Origin: Balneola sp.
Lineage (GTDB): Bacteria; Bacteroidota; Rhodothermia; Balneolales; Balneolaceae
Assembly (NCBI GenBank): GCA_002696035.1
Contig: NZQV01000010.1
Coordinates: 744,001 to 808,000 of the forward strand
DNA length: 64,000 bases
Direction of reading: 5' to 3'
Part shown: piece after piece, positions 4,007-36,401 of the stretch
Position numbering within the stretch: the stretch's first letter is position 1
How the letters are laid out: every line of letters begins with the position of its first letter
The notes under the pieces: generated by a model
Told to the model about the DNA's origin: nothing
The model's database searches: none
What the model saw: the letters and a program-made list of their open reading frames with translations, nothing else
Position numbers and translations under genes: made by a program

Positions 4007-4963
4007 CTAAAACAACTCTTTCGCCACTTCATACACTGAAGCTGATTTTCCCATTGAATAAAAGTGCAAGCTCGGCACACCAAATTCCATCAATTCTTTA
4101 GATTGCTGAATAGTCCATTCAATACCAACCTGCCGAACCTCATCCCGGTTATTACATTTCTCCACTTCCTTGGTTAGCTCCATTGGCAGATCCACATAAA
4201 AAAGCTGAGGCAATATGGTAAGCTGTTTGGGAGATGTGATCGGCTTCAACCCCGGAATAATGGGCAATGTAATGTCGTTATCCCGGCATTTCTTTACAAA
4301 ATCAAAATAATGCTGATTCTCAAAGAACATTTGCGTCACGACATAATCTGCCCCCAGATCCTGTTTTAATTTCAAATACTTAAGATCAGTTTGCATATTG
4401 GGTGCAGCAAAATGCTTTTCGGGATACCCCGCTACCCCAATACAAAAATCAGAGGGCTTGGCGTTTTCCAACTCCTCATCCAGATAAATTCCGTTATTCA
4501 GATCCACCACCTGTTCGAGCAGATCAGAAGCATGTGCGTGTCCATCGGGTTCAGGAACAAATTCACGCTCCGGCTTCCGCGTATCTCCCTGAATGAGCAA
4601 CACGTTGTCGATTCCTAAAAAATTCAGATCGATGAGGGCGTTTTCGGTGTCCTCACGAGAAAAACCTCCGCAAATAATATGAGGCACGGCATCCACCTTA
4701 TAGTGATTTTGAATAGCGGCACAAATCCCCACAGTTCCGGGACGTTTACGAACAGTCTTTCGCTCCAACAACCCATTCTCCCTCTTCTTATACACAAACT
4801 CTTCCCGGTGGTAAGTCACATCCACAAAAGGAGGATTGAACTCCATAAGCGGATCCATGTGATCGAATAAAGAGCGGATATTTTGTCCTTTTAATGGCGG
4901 AAGTACCTCAAATGAAAACAAGGTGTTGCCGTTCGCTTTTTTAATATGTTCGTTTACTTTCAT
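4007..4963 (-). CDS. metF: Methylenetetrahydrofolate reductase
   Basis: The 318-residue TIM-barrel flavoprotein reduces 5,10-methylene-THF to 5-methyl-THF, the methyl donor for methionine synthase. The start region has the family FSFEVLPP motif (about 16-23), with the FVDVTYH strand after it. Further on are [16 protein letters not shown] and the IPGLKPI loop, and the end is [19 protein letters not shown]. The start overlaps the stop of metH by 4 bases (ATGA), so the two are translationally coupled. It is the last gene of the riboswitch-controlled methionine operon. Confidence 0.95.
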
Positions 4964-7659
4964 GGTGAATTTGGGTCATAGTCTAAATTAGGAGAAAGCC
5001 ATTTTTCCACTTTCTCTTTTGCAGATGATTTTCTTTTCGCATAATCAGTGATCTGATCTTCCCCGAGGTTACCAACGCGAAAGTACCGGGATTGCGGATG
5101 TGAAAAATACATCCCACTCACCGATGAAGCCGGATACATAGCAAAGGATTCTGTGAGTTCAATATCCGCATTCTGTTCTACTTCCAGCAGGTCAAAAAGT
5201 GTGCGCTTTTCGGTATGATCGGGACAGGCGGGATAGCCTGGAGCGGGCCGAATGCCAGAGTACTTTTCAGCGATCAGTTCCTGGTTACTAAAGTTCTCTT
5301 CATCGGAATAGCCCCAGAATTCTTTTCGAACACGCTCATGCATGCGTTCAGCAAAAGCTTCTGCCAGTCGATCGGCCACAGCCTTAACCAAAATCACATT
5401 ATAATCATCGTGCTTATCCTGGTATTTCTTAAGTAATGGCTCAATGCCAATACCTGCTGTAACCGCAAAAAAGCCAATATAATCTGTAACACCGGTTTCT
5501 CTCGGAGCAATGTAATCTGACAAGCTGGAATTCGGCTGACCAGACCGCTTCTTAGTCTGCTGTCGCAAAAAGTGAAATTCTGTATTCTCTTTTGAAAGGT
5601 CTTCATCCTCAAAAAGCTGAACATCTTCGCCATCGGCCACTGCAGGGTAAAATCCGATCACCGCCTTGGCTTTCAGAAGGTCTCCTTCCACAATTTCATC
5701 CAGCAGCTTCTGGGCGTCATCAAAAAGGGACTGCGCCTGTTCTCCCACTTCCTCATCCTCCAGAATATCCGGATATTTTCCGGTCAGCATCCATGTGCGG
5801 AAAAATGGTGACCAGTCGATGTAATTTCGAAGTTCAGCAATCGGGTAATCCTCAAAAACTTTGTTTCCAAGGAAGGAAGGCTGTGGCGGCTCATACCCTT
5901 CCCAATCTATTTGTGTTCTATTGGCTTTGGCGTCATCAAAAGGTAAAAGTTCCTTTTTATTTTGCCGGTTTTCATGTTGTTCACGAAGCGTAGCATATTC
6001 TTTCTTGATCTCCAGCTTCACCGAATCTTTTCTCTTTGGACTAATAACATCACCGGCCATGGATACGGCGCGGGATGCGTCCAATACATGCACTACTGAG
6101 CTGTCGTACTCGGGATCGATCTTGACTGCTGTATGCAGTCGGGAAGTTGTAGCTCCACCGATCATTAACGGCAGATCCATGCCTCGCTTTTTCATCTCAC
6201 GAGCTACGTGGATCATTTCATCCAGTGAGGGTGTGATCAACCCACTCAAACCAATGGCATCTACTTCGTGTTTTTCGGCTTCGTCCAAAATCTTATCGGC
6301 CGGCACCATCACTCCAAGATCTACCACATTGTAGTTATTACAAGCCAATACCACGCTCACAATGTTTTTACCAATATCGTGAACATCGCCTTTTACCGTA
6401 GCTAAAAGCACTTTTGGTTGCTTGCTCGTATCCTTGTTGTCTCTTTTTTCCTGTTCTAAATATGGAGTAAGGTAAGCCACCGCTTGTTTCATCACCCGGG
6501 CACTTTTCACCACCTGAGGAAGAAACATTTTACCTGAACCAAACAGATCTCCCACCACATTCATCCCGTCCATCAGCGGACCTTCGATAACCTGCAGCGG
6601 ACTTCCGTATTTCACCCGTGCTTCTTCAGCATCGTCTTCAATGTGATCATTGATCCCTTTTACCAGCGAGTGACTTATACGGTCCTCAACCTCTTTTTTA
6701 CGCCATTCATCATCTTTCTTGGCTTTAATGGTAGAACCTTCGTTCTTGAATTCTTCGGCAATTTCCATCAGTCGTTCAGTGGCATCATCCCGGCGATCAA
6801 AAAGAACATCTTCTACCCTTTCAAGCAAGTCTTCAGGAATGTCATCATATACCTCAAGCTGGGTTGGATTCACGATCCCCATGTCCATTCCATGATCGAT
6901 TGCATGATAGAGAAATGCGGAGTGAATGGCTTCCCGAACACGATTATTTCCCCGGAAAGAAAATGAGACGTTACTTACTCCACCAATGACATGTGCGCCC
7001 GGCAGATTTTCACGGATCCATTTAGCGGATTTGAAAAAATCGAGCGCATTTTGCCGATGTTCTTCCATCCCGGTAGCAACGGGGAAAATGTTGGGATCGA
7101 GAATAATATCTGATGGATGAAAGCCCGCTTCTTTGGTAAGGATCTTATAAGCCCGACCACAGATCTCTTTTCGCCGGGGAAGCGTATCGGCCTGGCCTTC
7201 TTCATCAAATGCCATACAAATTACAGCAGCGCCAAAACGTCGAATGATCTTGGCTCGTCGCAGGAATTCCTCTTCTCCATCTTTCAGACTGATAGAATTA
7301 ACTACGCCTTTGCCCTGCATGCATTTTAGTCCGGCAAGTATTACTTCCCATTTCGAGGAATCCACCATAATCGGGATCTTGGCAATATCAGGATCGGAGG
7401 CGATAAGATTGAGGAAATTGGTCATTTCTTCGGCACTATCCAGCATGCCTTCATCCATGTTAACATCCAGGATCTGTGCCCCGCCCTGTACCTGATCGAG
7501 CGCAATTTTGAGCGCCTGATCGTAATTCTTTTCTTTAATGGTATTTAAAAATCGTCGTGAACCGGTAACATTGGTCCGTTCTCCCACATTCACAAAGTTC
7601 GAATCTTCGGTAATGATAAGAGGTTCAAGTCCGCTAAGCGTAAGAGGTAATGACTTCAT
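4960..7659 (-). CDS. metH: Methionine synthase, folate/cobalamin/activation modules (split MetH, C-terminal part)
   Basis: This 899-residue protein lacks the homocysteine-binding barrel of full-length MetH (about 1,220 residues) and starts directly in the methyl-THF domain, with [14 protein letters not shown] near residue 24. Next come the cobalamin cap and the B12-binding Rossmann domain, with DVHDIGKNI (about 425) containing the DxHxxG histidine that ligates cobalt. The C-terminal AdoMet reactivation domain has [15 protein letters not shown] near residue 795. The missing module is encoded just upstream at 7818..8828. The two proteins presumably associate to transfer methyl from methyl-THF through B12 to homocysteine. 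All catalytic landmarks are intact. Confidence 0.95.
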
Positions 7660-7817: not shown

Positions 7818-8828
7818 TCACACTAAAACTCCATCTGCTTTTTTTGCTTTTCGGGGCGGATATTTTTCAGCCAGTTCGGCCATTCTTGTAATATGCGCAG
7901 GAGTGGTACCACAGCACCCTCCAAGTATATTTACCAATCCATCTTCCAGGTATTCTTTCACCTGACTTCCCATTTCATCCGGACCTTCGTCATATTCCCC
8001 AAATTCATTCGGCAACCCCGCGTTGGGATATGCACTTATATAAAATGGAGATCTGTCGGAAAGATTTTGTAAGTATGGCTTCAGCTGCTTCGCGCCTAAT
8101 GCACAATTAAATCCTACGCTAAGGATGGGCGCATGAGAGACTGATATCAAAAAAGCTTCTGCGGTTTGACCGGAAAGCGTTCTGCCTGAGGCATCTGTAA
8201 TGGTTCCCGAGACCATGATCGGGAGCTCCTCTCCCCGTTCCTCAAAGAGTTCCTGAATGGCGAAAAGAGCAGCTTTGGCGTTCAGCGTATCGAAAATGGT
8301 TTCAACAAGAAGTACATCCGCTCCGCCATCCATTAGTCCGCGGGCTTGTTCCTTGTAAGCCTCAGCGAGTTCATCGAAGGTGACAGCCCGGTAGCCGGGA
8401 TCAGTAACTTCGGGTGAAATGGAAGCCGTTTTGTTCGTTGGCCCCATCGATCCGGCTACAAAACGTGGTTTATCAGGGGTTTTTTGGGTGAATTTATCCG
8501 TGGCTTTTTTAGCGATCTCAGCCGATTTCTTGTTCAATTCATACACAACAGATTCCAGGCTGTAATCTGCCTGGGCTATGGAAGTCCCGCTAAAAGTATT
8601 GGTCTCTACAATATCAGCTCCAGCTTCCAGATATTCCTCATGGATGGCTTGAATGATATCCGGACGAGTCAGGCTCAGCAGATCGTTATTTCCCTTCAGA
8701 TCGTCCGGGTGATCTTTAAATTGTTCTCCACGAAAATCCTCCTCTTCCAGCTTATAACGCTGAATCATAGTGCCCATAGCACCATCGAGGATCAAAATTC
8801 GGTCTTGTAAAACTTCTTTTATGTTCAC
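7818..8828 (-). CDS. metH: Homocysteine S-methyltransferase module of split methionine synthase (MetH N-terminal part)
   Basis: This 336-residue TIM barrel corresponds to the first domain of MetH. It starts with [15 protein letters not shown] (about 12-26). It contains the zinc-ligand cysteines in VGFNCALG and in [11 protein letters not shown] (about 305-315), which activate the homocysteine thiol. It ends just after this, where full-length MetH would continue into the folate domain. The remaining modules are the next gene downstream, separated by 158 bases. A stand-alone homocysteine methyltransferase is the alternative, but the LDGAMGT start and the neighbour favour the split MetH reading. 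It is the first gene after the SAM-I riboswitch. Confidence 0.94.
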
Positions 8829-8859: not shown

Positions 8860-8905
8860 AAAATCAAAAATTAGTAACCTCGCAGGTTCTACTAAATTGA
8901 TTTTT
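8860..8905 (-). terminator. Candidate expression-platform hairpin between the SAM riboswitch and metH
   Basis: Read on the minus strand, an A-rich 5' arm followed by AGTAGAACC faces GGTTACTA plus a T-rich 3' arm (ATTTTTGATTTTG), with a TGCGA loop. Two small internal mismatches interrupt the stem. The U-rich descending arm resembles an intrinsic terminator placed about 60 bases after the aptamer, which is where the expression platform should be. No anti-terminator pairing was worked out. Confidence 0.5.
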
Positions 8906-8964
8906 GGTAGCTCTTCTTTTCAAAGATTGGCTTATGCAGAAAGAGTTTGTGAGGGATCAGCTCG

Positions 8965-9073
8965 CTTATCTTTCCCAGCTGAATATAGCGCTGAGTGGGA
9001 TTTGGCACCTGCCCCTTTTAAGAAGTGGTTGCCAAGACGTCATCGGGCCCATCCCTCGGTCTTTCTTTATAAG
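8965..9073 (-). promoter_or_regulatory. SAM-I riboswitch (S-box leader)
   Basis: On the minus strand the element opens with CTTAT and closes with ATAAG, forming P1. Between them are the conserved GAGGGATGGGCCCGATGA, then TTGGCAACC, then AGGTGCCAAATCCC, and a last arm GGGAAAGATAAG. These are the near-invariant core residues of the SAM-I (S-box) aptamer, at normal spacing and a total of 109 bases. It lies about 135 bases upstream of the first metH gene and should reduce expression of metH, metH and metF when S-adenosylmethionine is abundant. Confidence 0.95.
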
Positions 9074-9095
9074 CATTCAATAAATTAACGACTTG

Positions 9096-24813: not shown

Positions 24814-26928
24814 TTATTCTTCTTCGTCGTTATCCAGTAATGCTTTTCTGGAAAGTCGAAGTTTGTTGCCCGGCTCGATCTTAAGAAGCTTCACTTCGAT
24901 CTCATCGCCCACGCTCATGTAATCATTTACATCTTTCACGTGTTTGTTGTCAACCTCAGATATGTGAAGCAAGCCATCGCGACCTGGAGCGATCTCAACG
25001 AAAGCACCGAAGTCTTTAATGGTTTTCACAGTGCCTTTGTAAATGGCTCCTTCTTCCAGTTGTCCTGTGATCGCTTTGATGCGTTCCTGAGCTGCCTCGG
25101 CTTTATCCAGACTGTCAGCAGAAATAGTGATCTTACCTTTTCCGGTTTCATCATCTTCTTCGATCCAGATCTCTGTATCAGTTTCTTTCTGGAGGGTTTG
25201 AATAACTTTTCCACCAGGACCAATAACCGCACCGATCATATCACCATCAATCGTCATGTTGATAAACTGAGGTGCAAATTCTGAAAGATTTTCTCTTGGT
25301 GTTGAAATGGTTTCAGCCATTTTTCCAAGAATGTGCAGTCGCCCTGTATGAGCTTGTTTAAGAGCTTCTTCCATTACTTCAAAAGAAATACCCTGAACTT
25401 TCATATCCATTTGGCAAGCAGTGATACCGTCAGCGGTACCGGCTGTTTTGAAGTCCATATCTCCCATGAAATCTTCTTCACCACGGATATCAGAAAGTAC
25501 AACAGAGTTATTCTCTCCAACAATCATACCCATTGCAATACCTGCAACCGGCTTTTTAAGAGGAACACCAGCATCCATCATTGCCATGGAACCACCACAA
25601 ACGGAGGCCATAGATGAAGAACCATTTGATTCGGTGATATCAGAGATCACGCGAATCACATAACCGAAATCATCAAAAGAAGGCATCATTTTTTTCAATG
25701 AACGTTCTGCCAAGTGTCCGTGACCAATTTCACGTCGGCCAGGACCTCTTAAGAATCCTGCTTCTCCTACAGAATATGGAGGGAAGTTATAGTGCAGATA
25801 AAATTTCTTTTCTTCTTCGTCGAACAATGTATCGACAGCTTGAGCATCTTTCTTGGTACCAAGCGTTACCGATACAAGTGCCTGAGTTTCACCACGTGTA
25901 AATACCGCAGATCCGTGTGTACGCACCAAATATCCAACCTGTGTCCAGATATCACGAATATCTTCCGGGGAACGGCCATCGATACGACGCTTTTTCTCGA
26001 GGATCATATTGCGAAGTTCTTCCTTCTCGATATCGCCAAGGATATCTTTGATAGTGCCAACTTCTTCTTCGTATTCTTCCTCAAGTTCAGCTACTACGCT
26101 GTCTTTGGCTTCTTGTAGCTTCTCGCTGTACTCTTCTTTTCCAAGACCAATGTTTACAACATCTTTGATCTTGTCAGTAGCCAACTCGCGAACCTTATTC
26201 TCAATTTCTTCAGGATTTCCTTCAGCAACAAATTCACGCTTAGGTTTTCCAAATTCTTCGCGAAGTTCTTCCTGAAACTCACATAAAGTGATGATGGATG
26301 CGTGAGCAGCTTTTATTGCTCCGAGCATATCCTCTTCAGAAACTTCATCCATGTCTCCTTCCATCATCAATACTGAGTCGGCTGTTCCACCAACAATCAT
26401 GTCGATGTCACTTTCTTCCAGTTCAGAAAGTGTTGGGTTGATCACATACTCGCCATCAACACGACCAACGCGAACTTCAGCCATCGGGCCCTCAAAAGGC
26501 ACGTCAGAAATATGAAGTGCAGCTGATGATCCAAATCCACCTAAAACATCTCCGTCGTTTTCTCCATCTGAAGAAAGTACGCTTGAGATGATCTGTGTTT
26601 CACATAAATATCCTTTTGGGAAAAGAGGACGTAAACTACGGTCAATCAAACGACTTGAAAGTACTTCTTTCTCAGAAGGACGTCCCTCTCTTTTCATAAA
26701 TCCACCGGGAAAACGACCACCAGCTGAAAAGCTTTCTCTGTGATCAACAACCAGCGGGAAAAAATTCTGCCCCGGTTTTGCCTCTTTGGCACTCACAGCG
26801 GTACACAGTACCTGCGTATCCCCCATTCTTACTATAACAGCGCCATCGGCTTGCTTTGCAATCCGGCCTGTATCTACTGAAAGCACCTTTCCCGGTGCAA
26901 ATTCTACACTTCTTAATTCTTCTTTCAT
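24814..26928 (-). CDS. pnp: Polyribonucleotide nucleotidyltransferase (PNPase)
   Basis: The 704-residue protein phosphorolytically degrades RNA 3' to 5' in the degradosome or alone. Two RNase PH domains are visible (GGRFPGGFMKREGRPSEKE near 70-90, and RTHGSAVFTRGETQALVSV near 350). A KH domain follows (MIGAVIGPGGKVIQTLQKET, about 565-585) and then an S1 domain (EGAIYKGTVKTIKDFGAFVEI, about 630-650). Length and domain order are standard. It follows rpsO as in most bacteria, but a terminator separates the two. Confidence 0.97.
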   Translation of the reverse strand: MKEELRSVEFAPGKVLSVDTGRIAKQADGAVIVRMGDTQVLCTAVSAKEAKPGQNFFPLVVDHRESFSAGGRFPGGFMKREGRPSEKEVLSSRLIDRSLRPLFPKGYLCETQIISSVLSSDGENDGDVLGGFGSSAALHISDVPFEGPMAEVRVGRVDGEYVINPTLSELEESDIDMIVGGTADSVLMMEGDMDEVSEEDMLGAIKAAHASIITLCEFQEELREEFGKPKREFVAEGNPEEIENKVRELATDKIKDVVNIGLGKEEYSEKLQEAKDSVVAELEEEYEEEVGTIKDILGDIEKEELRNMILEKKRRIDGRSPEDIRDIWTQVGYLVRTHGSAVFTRGETQALVSVTLGTKKDAQAVDTLFDEEEKKFYLHYNFPPYSVGEAGFLRGPGRREIGHGHLAERSLKKMMPSFDDFGYVIRVISDITESNGSSSMASVCGGSMAMMDAGVPLKKPVAGIAMGMIVGENNSVVLSDIRGEEDFMGDMDFKTAGTADGITACQMDMKVQGISFEVMEEALKQAHTGRLHILGKMAETISTPRENLSEFAPQFINMTIDGDMIGAVIGPGGKVIQTLQKETDTEIWIEEDDETGKGKITISADSLDKAEAAQERIKAITGQLEEGAIYKGTVKTIKDFGAFVEIAPGRDGLLHISEVDNKHVKDVNDYMSVGDEIEVKLLKIEPGNKLRLSRKALLDNDEEE

Positions 26929-27002: not shown

Positions 27003-27024
27003 AAAAAGGCTCCACGGTGGAGCC
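27003..27024 (-). terminator. Intrinsic terminator of rpsO
   Basis: On the minus strand GGCTCC and GGAGCC (27024..27008) form a short GC-rich stem (the whole 17-mer is nearly palindromic) followed by TTTTT. It starts 18 bases after the rpsO stop. Leaky termination here would set the rpsO to pnp ratio. Confidence 0.85.
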
Positions 27025-27042
27025 TTTTGTACGAATATAAAC

Positions 27043-31059: not shown

Positions 31060-33912
31060 TTATCCGGCAGAATCCTCGAGGGTACGTTTCTCCTCAACGA
31101 TCTTGTAACTCTCGATCTGGTCGCCCACTTTAATATCATTATAACCCTGAATACTTATACCGCATTCATAGCCTGTGGTCACTTCCTTCACATCGTCTTT
31201 GAAACGCTTGAGGGCATCAATTTCCCCATCATAGATCACAACACCGTCGCGAACAAGTCGAATCGGATTATTGCGCTCGATCTTACCTTCTGTTACATAG
31301 CAACCGGCAATGGTTCCAACTTTGGATACTTTGAAGATCTCACGGACTTCAACAACACCCAGCATTTGTTCTCTGAGTTCAGGTGAAAGCAAGCCTTCAA
31401 GCGCATCCCGAACTTCATCAACGGCATCATAAATAACGCTGAACAGTCGGATGTCAATTTCTTCTTCCTCGGCAAGTTTACGAGCCTGAGCCGTTGGCCG
31501 TACCTGGAAACCAATGATGATTGCGTCAGAAGCAGAGGCTAACAGTACATCCGATTCAGAAATAGCTCCCGCTCCGGTATGTATGATGTTCACTGCAACT
31601 TCATCGGTACTTAGTTTCTGGAGTGAACCGGAAAGCGCTTCAATAGAACCATCTACATCGGCTTTTACGATCACATTCAGTTCAGAAACTTCACCAAGCG
31701 CAAGTCGTCGTGAAATATCATCAAGTGTCATATGCTTATTCTTGCGCATGGCTTGCTCGCGGCGAATCTGCATACGCTCGCTGGCAACTTCTTTAGCTGT
31801 CTTCTCATCTTCAGCTACAAGCAGTTTATCACCAGCTTGTGGCATATCATCAAAACCCATTAACTGAACGGGAGTAGATGGTCCGGCTTTTTGAACTCGT
31901 TGCCCAAGGTCATTCTCCATAGCTCGAACACGACCAAAACAAGGCCCTGCTACAAATGGATCTCCAACCTTCAATGTACCACCCTGAACCAGGATGTTGG
32001 CTACAATACCTTTCCCTTTATCCAGGCGGGCTTCAAGTACAACACCGTCTGCCCGTCGGTCAGGATTTGCCTTCAATTCAAGCAATTCTGCTTCTATCAA
32101 TAATTTTTCGAGAAGATCTTCGATTCCTTGTCCCGTATGAGCTGAAACTTCAGAATACTGCACTTGACCACCGTATTCCTCAACGATCACATCGTGTTCC
32201 GCCAACTCAGATTTAATTCGATCAGGTTTAACGCCTTCCTTATCCATCTTATTGATGGCTACTACGATAGGTACACCAGCTGCTTTGGCGTGATTGATGG
32301 CCTCAATAGTTTGGGGCATCACAGAATCATCACCGGCAACAACCAGAATTACAATATCAGTAGCCTGAGCTCCACGCGAACGCATAGCTGTAAAAGCCTC
32401 GTGACCCGGTGTATCAAGGAATGTAATTTCATTGTTGTTATGGACCACCTGGTAGGCACCAACGTGCTGGGTAATACCACCAGCCTCGCCTGCTGCTACT
32501 TTTTCTTCACGAATGTAATCCAGTAAAGATGTTTTACCATGATCAACGTGACCCATCACGGTAATGATAGGTGCACGAGGTTCAAGATCTTCTTCGTCAT
32601 CTTCTGGAATAGTGAGTTCTTCATCAATTTCTTCAGCGTCGATGAACTCAACTTCTTTTCCGAATTCTTCTGCTACCAATTCAATGGTACCGGCATCCAA
32701 TCGCTGGTTGATGGTGATCATCAAGCCAATGGACATACATACCGAAATAATATCGTTTACTCCTACATCAAGCAACTCAGCAAGTTCGTTGGCAGTGATG
32801 AACTCAGTCGTCTCAATTACATCAGACTCGAGCTCCTCCATTTCCTGCTGCTTTTGCATTTCCTCCTCGCGTTCCTCTTTTCTTTCCCGACGGCGTTTCT
32901 GACGCTTACTTCCAACTGTTTTGGAAGATTTCATTTTCTTCAGCGTCTCTTTCATCATCTTATCGACATCGGTCTCGTCGATTTCAGTCTTACGCTTTCT
33001 CTTCTTACCGCCCTTCTTAGATTTGCTTGATTTCTTGCTGGAATCCGAATCGTCGTCTTTACGATCTTTGCGGCGTTTACGCTTTTTGCGAGGTTTCCTG
33101 TCGGCAATATCACTGGTGAAGGAAGCTTTACCTAATACTTTGGTGCCTTTTAATTTCCCTGCAGAACCACGAATGATCTCCTCTTCTTCTTCGTCACTAT
33201 CATCTTTATCATCCTCAGATTTTTCTTCGGAGGCTTCCTGCTCGGATTCCTCAGATTCAGTTTCTTTGGATTCGGAGTCTTCGTCTTCTTCTTTGTCTTC
33301 TTTTTCTTCCTTCTGCTTTGCTTCGGCTTCCTCTTTCTTCTTCTCTTCTTCTGCTGCTGCCTTTTTCTTAGCCTCAGCTTCTTCTTTTTCTTTCTTGGCT
33401 TTTTCTTCAGCCTTTCGCTTCTCTTCTTCCTCTTTGGCTTTTTTGGCAGCCTCTTCTTCTTTTTTCTTCTCTTCCTCAGCTTTTTTCTTGGCTTCGGCTT
33501 CTTCTTTTGCCTTAGCTTCTTCCTCTTCTGAGACTTCCTGAGGTTCTAAAGAACTTTCAATGTCATCAACAGGCTCAAGATCCGGCTTATCGTCTTCAGG
33601 CTCCAGTTCAACCGATTCTTCGTCTTCAAGCGGCTCCAATACATTTTCGATAGTTACTCTATCATTGCGCTGATTCATCATTTGGCTGCGACGGTTTTCA
33701 TATTCATCGCGTGCCTTTTCATGGTCAGCACTTTTTGCCTTGTCCTCACCATAAACTTCTTCCAACGCCTCATACATATCAGGCTGAATTTTGAAGTTGG
33801 GGCGGTTTGATACATCAAAACCTTTCTCAGTCAATGCATCCACGATAGATTGTGTGGCTACATTAAATTCTGATGCAACTTTAAATAATGGTTTGGGTCT
33901 TTTAGACGACAT
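31060..33912 (-). CDS. infB: Translation initiation factor IF-2
   Basis: The 950-residue GTPase places initiator tRNA on the 30S subunit. A short N-terminal IF2_N domain ([20 protein letters not shown], about 10-29) is followed by about 350 residues of Glu/Lys/Ala low-complexity coiled-coil. The basic region [15 protein letters not shown] and a second IF2_N domain come next. The G domain then has [22 protein letters not shown] and NKMD, and domains II-IV follow. The linker explains the length above the E. coli 890. It stands between nusA and rbfA. Confidence 0.97.
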
Positions 33913-33975: not shown

Positions 33976-35232
33976 TTAATCTTCGTCTTCGAATTCGTAG
34001 GCGATCACACTCATGATCTTCTCAGCTAGCTCGGGATCTATTTCTTCGTTCGTTCTGCTTACTAGTTCTTCTGCATTAAGCTCTAATACAGCACGTGCGG
34101 TATCACAGCCAATATCGTGAAGCATTTGAATAACTTCAGGACCGAAATCAATTTCGAATTCATCGATATCGATATCATCTTCGGCTTCCACTTCACGATA
34201 CACATCAATTTCTACACCGGCCAGCTTGGATGCAAGGCGAATATTCACCCCTCCTTTACCAATTGCTTTTGAAACTTCATCGGCCGGCACCAATACGTTG
34301 GCGTGCTTGTTCTCCTCATCCAGTTCTACTTTTAAAACTTCTGCTGGCTGCAGGGCTCGTTTGATGAATTCAAACTTATCATCGGTAAAGTTTATCACAT
34401 CGATGTTCTCATTTTGAAGCTCGCGTACAATGGCATGAATGCGAATCCCTTTCATACCAACACAAGCGCCAACAGGATCTACGCGCTCATCGTGTGAGCG
34501 AACTGCCACTTTAGAGCGATCTCCGGGAGAACGTGCAATGCGTACCAGATCAATAATTCCATCAAAAACTTCAGGTATCTCATTCTCAAACAAGCGTTCT
34601 AGGAACAGCTCCGATGTTCTTGAGATGATCACCGTTGGATTTCCATTTCGCATGCGAACTTCAGATACTACCGCACGGATGGTATCCCCTTTTCGGTAAC
34701 GGTCTTTATAGATCTGCTCGTTTTTAGGAAGCAGTAGTTCTACACCGTTATGATTCACCAAAATATCTTTGTTTTGGCGTACCTGATATACATCACCAAG
34801 GATGATCTCGCCTACACGATCGGTATAATCTTCGTAAATATTATCTTTCTCGATCTCACGGATGCGCTGAGCAAGCTGCTGTCGGGCCATAGTTACGGCA
34901 CGGCGACCAAAATCAGTGATCTGAATTTCCTGAGCCAACTCGTCATACAGTTCAATATCCGGGTCAACTTTTTGGGCGTCTTCAAGTGTAATTTCTGCTA
35001 CAGCATCGGTGAGCTCATCTTCCGGAACTACTTCCTGAACATGAAGGATCTGAATTTCCCCGCGGTCTGCATTTAAGATCACCTCGAATGCATCATCCGA
35101 CTCATATTTTTTGCGGATCATGGTTCGAAATACGTCTTCCAAAATAGAAAGAAGCATATCTCGATCTATGCCTTTCTCGTGTGCAATTTCAGCAAACGAG
35201 GAGATAATCTGTTTTGATAATTCGTTCTGCAT
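33976..35232 (-). CDS. nusA: Transcription termination/antitermination factor NusA
   Basis: The 418-residue protein binds RNA polymerase and nascent RNA. In order it has the N-terminal polymerase-binding domain, an S1 domain (VGEIILGDVYQVRQNKDILV, about 140-160), KH1 (DPVGACVGMKGIRIHAIVREL, about 250-270) and KH2 (DEVSKAIGKGGVNIRLASKL). A short helical C-terminus follows (ARAVLELNAEELVSRT). It lacks the two E. coli C-terminal acidic repeats, hence the shorter length. It follows rimP by 13 bases. Confidence 0.96.
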   Translation of the reverse strand: MQNELSKQIISSFAEIAHEKGIDRDMLLSILEDVFRTMIRKKYESDDAFEVILNADRGEIQILHVQEVVPEDELTDAVAEITLEDAQKVDPDIELYDELAQEIQITDFGRRAVTMARQQLAQRIREIEKDNIYEDYTDRVGEIILGDVYQVRQNKDILVNHNGVELLLPKNEQIYKDRYRKGDTIRAVVSEVRMRNGNPTVIISRTSELFLERLFENEIPEVFDGIIDLVRIARSPGDRSKVAVRSHDERVDPVGACVGMKGIRIHAIVRELQNENIDVINFTDDKFEFIKRALQPAEVLKVELDEENKHANVLVPADEVSKAIGKGGVNIRLASKLAGVEIDVYREVEAEDDIDIDEFEIDFGPEVIQMLHDIGCDTARAVLELNAEELVSRTNEEIDPELAEKIMSVIAYEFEDED

Positions 35233-35245
35233 TTGTGTATTAGAC

Positions 35246-35716
35246 TTAAATTACGGGGATTATTTTCGTTTTCACAATGGCTTCAAACGGAATCTCTGTT
35301 TCAACTTCTTCCTCATCCGTAATAGCCACAATGTCTTCTTTCACTCCGGTTATAACACCTTCTATTTTACTGTACTCTCCATCACTTTTTTTGAATTTAA
35401 TGGTAGCCACGCGACCCTCGTTCTTTCTATACTGACGCTTGTCACTCAATGGCCGGCTTAATCCTGGAGATGAAACATTCAATCGATAATTGGTATCAAA
35501 TAACTCATGAGCTTCGATCAAAAAACCGAGCTCTTTACTGATTTTTGAACACAGATCGATGTTCACTCCACCATGTTCGTTCTCCAAAAGCACCCAAACT
35601 TCTGTTTGGCCACTTCCGGTTTTTAGTTCCACATCTACAACAAACAGATCATGCTCTTCTGCAAGTGGTGCGGCTAACTCCTTAATATTTTCTAAGATAT
35701 CGATATTCATTTTCAT
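35246..35716 (-). CDS. rimP: Ribosome maturation factor RimP
   Basis: With the ATG at 35716 the protein is 156 residues, typical for RimP, which assists 30S assembly. Motifs are HDLFVVDVELKTGSGQTEVWV near the N-terminus, SKELGFLIE and the family YRLNVSSPGLSRPL segment (about 85-99). A TTG 15 bases further upstream is open but sits inside the U-tract of a hairpin (35730..35760), so I reject it as the start. A second ATG at 35710 is also possible. It is the first gene of rimP-nusA-infB-rbfA-truB-ribF. Confidence 0.94.
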   Translation of the reverse strand: MKMNIDILENIKELAAPLAEEHDLFVVDVELKTGSGQTEVWVLLENEHGGVNIDLCSKISKELGFLIEAHELFDTNYRLNVSSPGLSRPLSDKRQYRKNEGRVATIKFKKSDGEYSKIEGVITGVKEDIVAITDEEEVETEIPFEAIVKTKIIPVI

Positions 35717-35729
35717 CAAATTCTGAGAC

Positions 35730-35760
35730 AAAAAAAAGTGAGTGCCTTTCGGCGCTCACT
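35730..35760 (-). terminator. Terminator-like hairpin in the rimP leader (candidate attenuator)
   Basis: On the minus strand AGTGAGCGCC, a GAAA loop and GGCACTCACT pair through a stem of about 10 bp with one G-U. An uninterrupted run of Ts follows. It has the form of an intrinsic terminator but lies 14 bases before the rimP ATG, and the upstream gene (35910) is on the other strand, so it ends no upstream gene. It therefore probably attenuates transcription into rimP-nusA-infB. Confidence 0.75.
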
Positions 35761-35909
35761 GCTTTCTAAAGGTAGTTCTATTTCGCCTAAATTTCAATGT
35801 TAACAAAGTTATTGAACCATATTCATTTTTGCTTTCATACAATTTGCTCTTAATTTGGCTATTCAGATTTTGAAATCAATCACTCCAACAAAAATATCCT
35901 CTCTCTGTT

Positions 35910-36401
35910 ATGGCTTATAAAACTATCCTGACTATCCTCCTTTCTTTATCGCTATTATTTGTGGTGAATTGTGGAGATCAAAAAAAGGAATCTTCAGCCA
36001 GCGATAAAACCTCGCAAGGCCGAAGCCTCAATTTTACAGATGAAGTTACGTTCCTGAATACCTCCGGTGAGCAGATCTCAACAGTACGGGTTGCCCTTGC
36101 AGATGATAACCAAAAAAGAAATCAGGGCTTAATGGATGTGAATGAACTGCCCGCTGATGCCGGCATGTTGTTTATTTTCCCCGATGAAGAACCCCGTAGT
36201 TTTTACATGGCCAATACGCCTCTGCCTCTCGATATTATGTATGTGAACTCCGACAGTGTCATTGTCCGTATTCACCACAACACAACGCCGTTTAGCAGTA
36301 ATCAGCTTCTTTCGGAAGAACCTGCTCAGTTTGTTGTAGAGACAAACGGCGGATATGCCGTATCGCACGATATTAAGGAAGGAATGAAAATACGGTTTTG
36401 A
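35910..36401 (+). CDS. DUF192-family lipoprotein
   Basis: The 163-residue protein has a lipoprotein signal with hydrophobic LTILLSLSLLFVVNC, where Cys21 would be lipidated. Residues about 45-160 form a DUF192 domain, recognised by RNQGLMDVNELPADAGMLFIF and FYMANTPLPLDIMYV. DUF192 proteins are small periplasmic or archaeal barrel proteins of uncertain function. It is divergent from rimP and converges on araA, so it is transcribed alone. Confidence 0.88.
   Translation: MAYKTILTILLSLSLLFVVNCGDQKKESSASDKTSQGRSLNFTDEVTFLNTSGEQISTVRVALADDNQKRNQGLMDVNELPADAGMLFIFPDEEPRSFYMANTPLPLDIMYVNSDSVIVRIHHNTTPFSSNQLLSEEPAQFVVETNGGYAVSHDIKEGMKIRF

Follow-up and report, generated by a model that had tools for sequence, protein, structure and literature searches.

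Why a hairpin resembling an intrinsic terminator stands immediately before the rimP-nusA-infB operon of Balneola sp. is the question that this locus raises. The first-pass annotation had remarked on a stem with a GAAA loop and an eight-T run at this site, argued that it could not terminate the upstream gene, and proposed a leader attenuator that senses NusA or the state of translation. In the window analyzed here (the whole stretch of DNA, 64,000 nt), the operon lies on the minus strand and comprises rimP (35246-35710; Pfam RimP_N and DUF150_C), nusA (33976-35232; Pfam NusA_N, KH_5, and S1), and infB, which specifies IF-2 (31060-33912; Pfam IF-2, GTP_EFTU, and IF2_N). Two in-frame ATGs of rimP occur on this strand, at 35716 and 35710; since four sister genomes carry ATA at 35716, the ATG at 35710 was chosen as the conserved start. 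The neighboring gene, assigned by Pfam to the DUF192 family (35910-36401), lies on the plus strand, opposite to rimP, and the longest ORF upstream of rimP is likewise divergent in 28 of 30 relatives. Therefore, no upstream transcript ends at the hairpin, in line with the earlier argument. Whereas the metY gene precedes rimP in E. coli (PMC6511841), a tRNA search of the Balneola window found none.

The hairpin and the predicted promoter

The hairpin, AGTGAG-C-GCC-GAAA-GGC-A-CTCACT (AGTGAGCGCCGAAAGGCACTCACT), occupies positions 35737-35760 of the minus strand; its six outer and three inner pairs are separated by one C.A mismatch and capped by the GAAA loop. The hairpin runs into eight Ts (35730-35737, minus strand), the first of which doubles as the pairing partner of the stem's first A; from the end of this run, 13 nt lead to the ATG at 35716 and 19 nt to the conserved ATG at 35710. 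Folding of a 47-nt segment yielded -17.8 kcal/mol versus -7.3 on average for shuffled sequences (z = -4.5; none of 200 shuffles was as good), which bears out the stem described by the first-pass annotation, and the hairpin is the predicted fold of the leader RNA at all tested lengths of at least 28 nt. The hallmarks of intrinsic terminators, i.e., a G-C-containing hairpin with a U run directly after it, are present on the sense strand only. A simple consensus terminator scan of the window did not list this hairpin, presumably because of the mismatch in its stem. Mean hairpin energy is -11.5 kcal/mol, versus about -21 for the two strongest gene-end terminators of the window; the rimP stem looks weak for a terminator and appears to be tuned towards imperfection.

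Directly upstream, the minus strand carries a putative promoter made up of a -33 element TTG (35795-35797) and a -7 box, TACCTTTA (35767-35774), that follows the Bacteroidota sigma-A consensus TAnnTTTG. In the region 6-25 nt upstream of the stem, TAnnTT was found in 79/79 Balneolales versus 44/390 control windows, at actual distances of 8-19 nt. The TTG and the -7 box are separated by exactly 20 nt in 77 of the 79 genomes and by 19 and 22 nt in the remaining two (control rate for TTG at 18-23 nt before the box, 443/3847). In Flavobacterium psychrophilum, the TAnnTTTG box of sigma-A promoters spans -12 to -5 (PMC9723704); because the rimP motif matches this promoter type, a transcription start is predicted at 35762 (+/-2 nt). 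Transcription should thus begin about 2 nt before the stem, and an RNA stopped in the T run is predicted to be about 33 nt long. Between the TTG and the end of the T run, sequences of the genus show high identity, which drops farther upstream except for one block at -70 to -61. The block AAAAATGAAT..TTCAAT, located 51-70 nt before the stem (about 35811-35830, minus strand; loci L001-L009), is conserved in the genus and could be an activator site or an UP element.

Conservation within and beyond Balneolales

The first-pass annotation had also suggested looking for the hairpin upstream of rimP in relatives. Anchoring on RimP in 57 genomes (the own genome plus relatives) matched 54, and a class-wide draw added 25 Balneolaceae; the element precedes rimP in 54/54 and 25/25 of these genomes, respectively, i.e., in 79/79 Balneolales. 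Across this set, the outer stem AGTGAG/CTCACT is nearly invariant and the inner stem variable, the arms are spaced by 10-15 nt, and the T run of 7-9 nt is never broken. The position after GTGAG is mismatched in all 58 Balneolaceae (C.A in 33, C.U in 15, C.C in 9, and U.U in 1). Among the 44 distinct sequences from the first 54 genomes, pairing is retained in 92.3% of cells, and the outer-stem cells are always paired, with wobble plus a few two-sided changes. The covariation score of these 44 sequences is higher than that of any of 500 shuffles or of the slid controls; pair changes are mostly wobble, with two-sided change in four pairs only, and therefore the conservation of sequence and position, rather than covariation, constitutes the main evidence. 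Sequence conservation of the outer stem exceeds the demands of pairing, and a generic terminator does not account for it.

The element is also specific to this site. A covariance model scored 52.7 bits at rimP in the own genome and 32 bits at the next match, which marks the element as single-copy; seven further matches inspected in this genome are unrelated stems, mostly at gene ends. Matches were obtained in 90/97 genomes of the order (76/77 when only nearly complete genomes are counted); where the position of rimP was known, a by-eye comparison of coordinates placed the best match immediately upstream of it. Since many of the same sequences had gone into the model, these positions test uniqueness and not discovery. 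The pattern AAGTGAG-N6-20-CTCACTTTTTTTGTA was additionally searched over 84,980 species, and the first 80 of 115 loci were examined. Of these, 13 belong to Balneolales, with rimP-nusA directly downstream in 12 and a stretch that ends early in the 13th. In the stretches surrounding the other 67, tblastn found neither rimP nor nusA; the AAGTGAG pattern outside the order is therefore not a rimP element.

With an energy threshold applied, a strong hairpin with a T run was found on the sense strand before rimP in 77/79 Balneolales (antisense, 5; shuffles, 0-5) and, with a different stem at the same position, in 51/57 other Rhodothermia (antisense, 7; shuffles, 2-12) and 33/41 other Bacteroidota (antisense, 4; shuffles, 1-4), all these tallies being non-independent counts from genomes related by descent. 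The hairpin before rimP is thus real and directional, and it is not a product of chance. Two genomes of one further family carry an AGTGGG/CCCACT stem before rimP, most other Rhodothermia display a C-rich-first stem (e.g., GCGCCCG..CGGGCG), often preceded by a second, upstream GGGGGG..CCGCCC hairpin, and the stems of other Bacteroidota are lineage specific (e.g., TCGCCC/GGGCGA or AAAGTGGGG/CCCCACTTT). Tandem terminator-like hairpins, G-rich and then C-rich, occur before rimP in many other Rhodothermia (loci L208-L247 and others), an order that is the reverse of that of the Gammaproteobacteria tandem (PMC2965389).

Searches with the Rfam rimP family (RF01770; cut-off, 47 bits) gave no match in the window or elsewhere in this genome and none above the cut-off in 19 genomes; among the controls, the model does match E. 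coli. At a lax threshold, Rfam returned chance matches only. One sub-threshold rimP match of 37.3 bits (L309; G034:C45:33598-33682, minus strand) resides on a contig other than that of its genome's rimP and is probably an ordinary terminator.

A putative attenuator of the rimP operon

With a probability of roughly two in three (0.66), we read the hairpin as a promoter-proximal attenuator of rimP-nusA-infB, with NusA as its most likely sensor. RNA polymerase would begin about 2 nt ahead of the stem, and once about 33 nt have been made, the hairpin and the U run would halt a fraction of the polymerases. Plentiful NusA, itself a product of the operon, would increase termination and thereby decrease NusA synthesis. 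As terminators go, the stem is weak, and the released fraction would therefore depend on termination factors. With the predicted start about 2 nt away from the stem, there is no space for an aptamer, a leader peptide, or an antiterminator, and control must therefore come from outside the leader. As a NusA-autoregulated attenuator requires, the operon encodes NusA (by Pfam) downstream of the terminator. Termination so near the promoter may be inefficient, which counts against an attenuator, as does the conservation of the outer stem beyond what pairing requires.

The two sensing modes put forward by the first-pass annotation thus fare differently. The leader attenuator as such is favored by conservation in all 79 Balneolales, and the argument for NusA as the factor sensed is the precedent of B. 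subtilis and E. coli; sensing of the translation state is not supported, because a start this close to the stem leaves neither a leader peptide nor a competing structure. We likewise rejected a leader-peptide or riboswitch attenuator, since the promoter motif abuts the stem and an Rfam aptamer search of the window found none at the rimP leader.

In B. subtilis, NusA is autoregulated through NusA-stimulated termination in the leader (PMC12288461). The operon is the same and its leader also contains an intrinsic terminator; by analogy, we propose for Balneola the NusA control that operates there. The B. subtilis nusA leader is, however, about 180 nt long (PMC2965389), whereas that of Balneola would have a length of about 46-52 nt, its 5' end being taken up by the hairpin. 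Terminators also precede rimP in E. coli, where the operon transcripts become more abundant upon a reduction of NusA termination (PMC6511841). A further precedent comes from a different phylum: RNA-seq of the same operon in S. agalactiae (gbs0413-gbs0418) demonstrated a stop 31 nt after the start site (PMC4448216), compared with the approximately 33 nt predicted for Balneola.

The Balneola element shares with the rimP-leader of Naville and Gautheret (2010; PMC2965389) a short terminator just before rimP, a conserved stem sequence, and the lack of a visible antiterminator, and its distance of 19 nt to the conserved ATG falls within the 4-130 nt before the start that define that family. It differs in that the GGGc(...)gCCC signature is absent from Balneolales, whose stem is AGTGAG/CTCACT. 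This absence and the unmatched RF01770 model therefore identify the Balneola element as a lineage-specific variant of known regulation. In Flavobacteriaceae, i.e., within the same phylum and before the same gene, PMC9723704 reports a structured, transcript-supported rimP 5' element without Rfam match, which we liken to that of Balneola by description and not base by base.

Among other explanations, a constitutive promoter-proximal terminator would stop a fixed share of polymerases and set the operon level while sensing nothing. The leader without space for a sensor domain and a mismatched stem that could tune efficiency fit this idea, but a weaker promoter would achieve the same effect more cheaply and the operon is autoregulated in both E. 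coli and B. subtilis; we thus consider it unlikely. Somewhat less probable still is an attenuator governed by another trans-acting factor, be it NusG, RimP, or an RNA-binding protein specific for the AGUGAG stem. The near-invariant outer stem of Balneolales would suit such a reader, and RimP was weighed as an alternative to NusA by Naville and Gautheret (PMC2965389); outside the order, however, the stem is replaced and its position and U run are kept, which rather fits a factor recognizing a hairpin and U run generally. In a bolder version, for which we see a small chance, operon-encoded NusA or RimP would recognize the nascent AGUGAG/CUCACU stem by its sequence and bind it before the RNA exceeds 35 nt, perhaps with sigma still in place. 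If so, a sequence-read stem would let autoregulation act as initiation gives way to elongation, and each Bacteroidota lineage would use a stem code of its own.

The remaining explanations dispense with attenuation. Stems at 5' ends protect mRNA in other bacteria, and the hairpin lies at the predicted 5' end, where it might stabilize the message or shape translation with no termination involved; a stabilizer would not need the unbroken 7-9 Ts kept after the stem in every one of the 79 Balneolales, which makes this role very unlikely. The arms also form a near-invariant inverted repeat that a repressor might bind as a DNA operator just downstream of the start, but the distance between the arms ranges from 10 to 15 nt, the inner stem changes through wobble and occasional compensatory pairs, and Ts always follow the repeat on one side only, so that we give this idea hardly any weight. 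That the hairpin terminates the upstream gene or an unannotated small RNA gene can practically be dismissed: the upstream gene is divergent in 28 of 30 relatives, the stem immediately follows a promoter motif, and neither a tRNA in the window nor any other supporting evidence was found.

An attenuator with NusA as sensor would extend across the class, and probably the phylum, a type of control of this transcription-translation operon that has so far been described mainly in Firmicutes and Gammaproteobacteria. Termination is little studied in Bacteroidota. The Balneolales element is near minimal, consisting of promoter, hairpin, and U run; its 33-nt target would offer a clean test of whether NusA suffices for autoregulation, and the element could become an Rfam family of its own.

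Other elements of the window

A SAM riboswitch (Rfam RF00162, 82.2 bits) was found at 8963-9075 on the minus strand, before ORFs 7818-8828 and 4960-7659, which together look like a split methionine synthase. Two further hairpins of the leader-terminator type could be accounted for: that at 8862-8902 lies near the SAM riboswitch, on the other strand, and that at 27006-27026 (minus strand) stands at the end of a short ORF that precedes the gene at 24814-26928. Judging from sequence, this short ORF looks like rpsO and the following gene like pnp.
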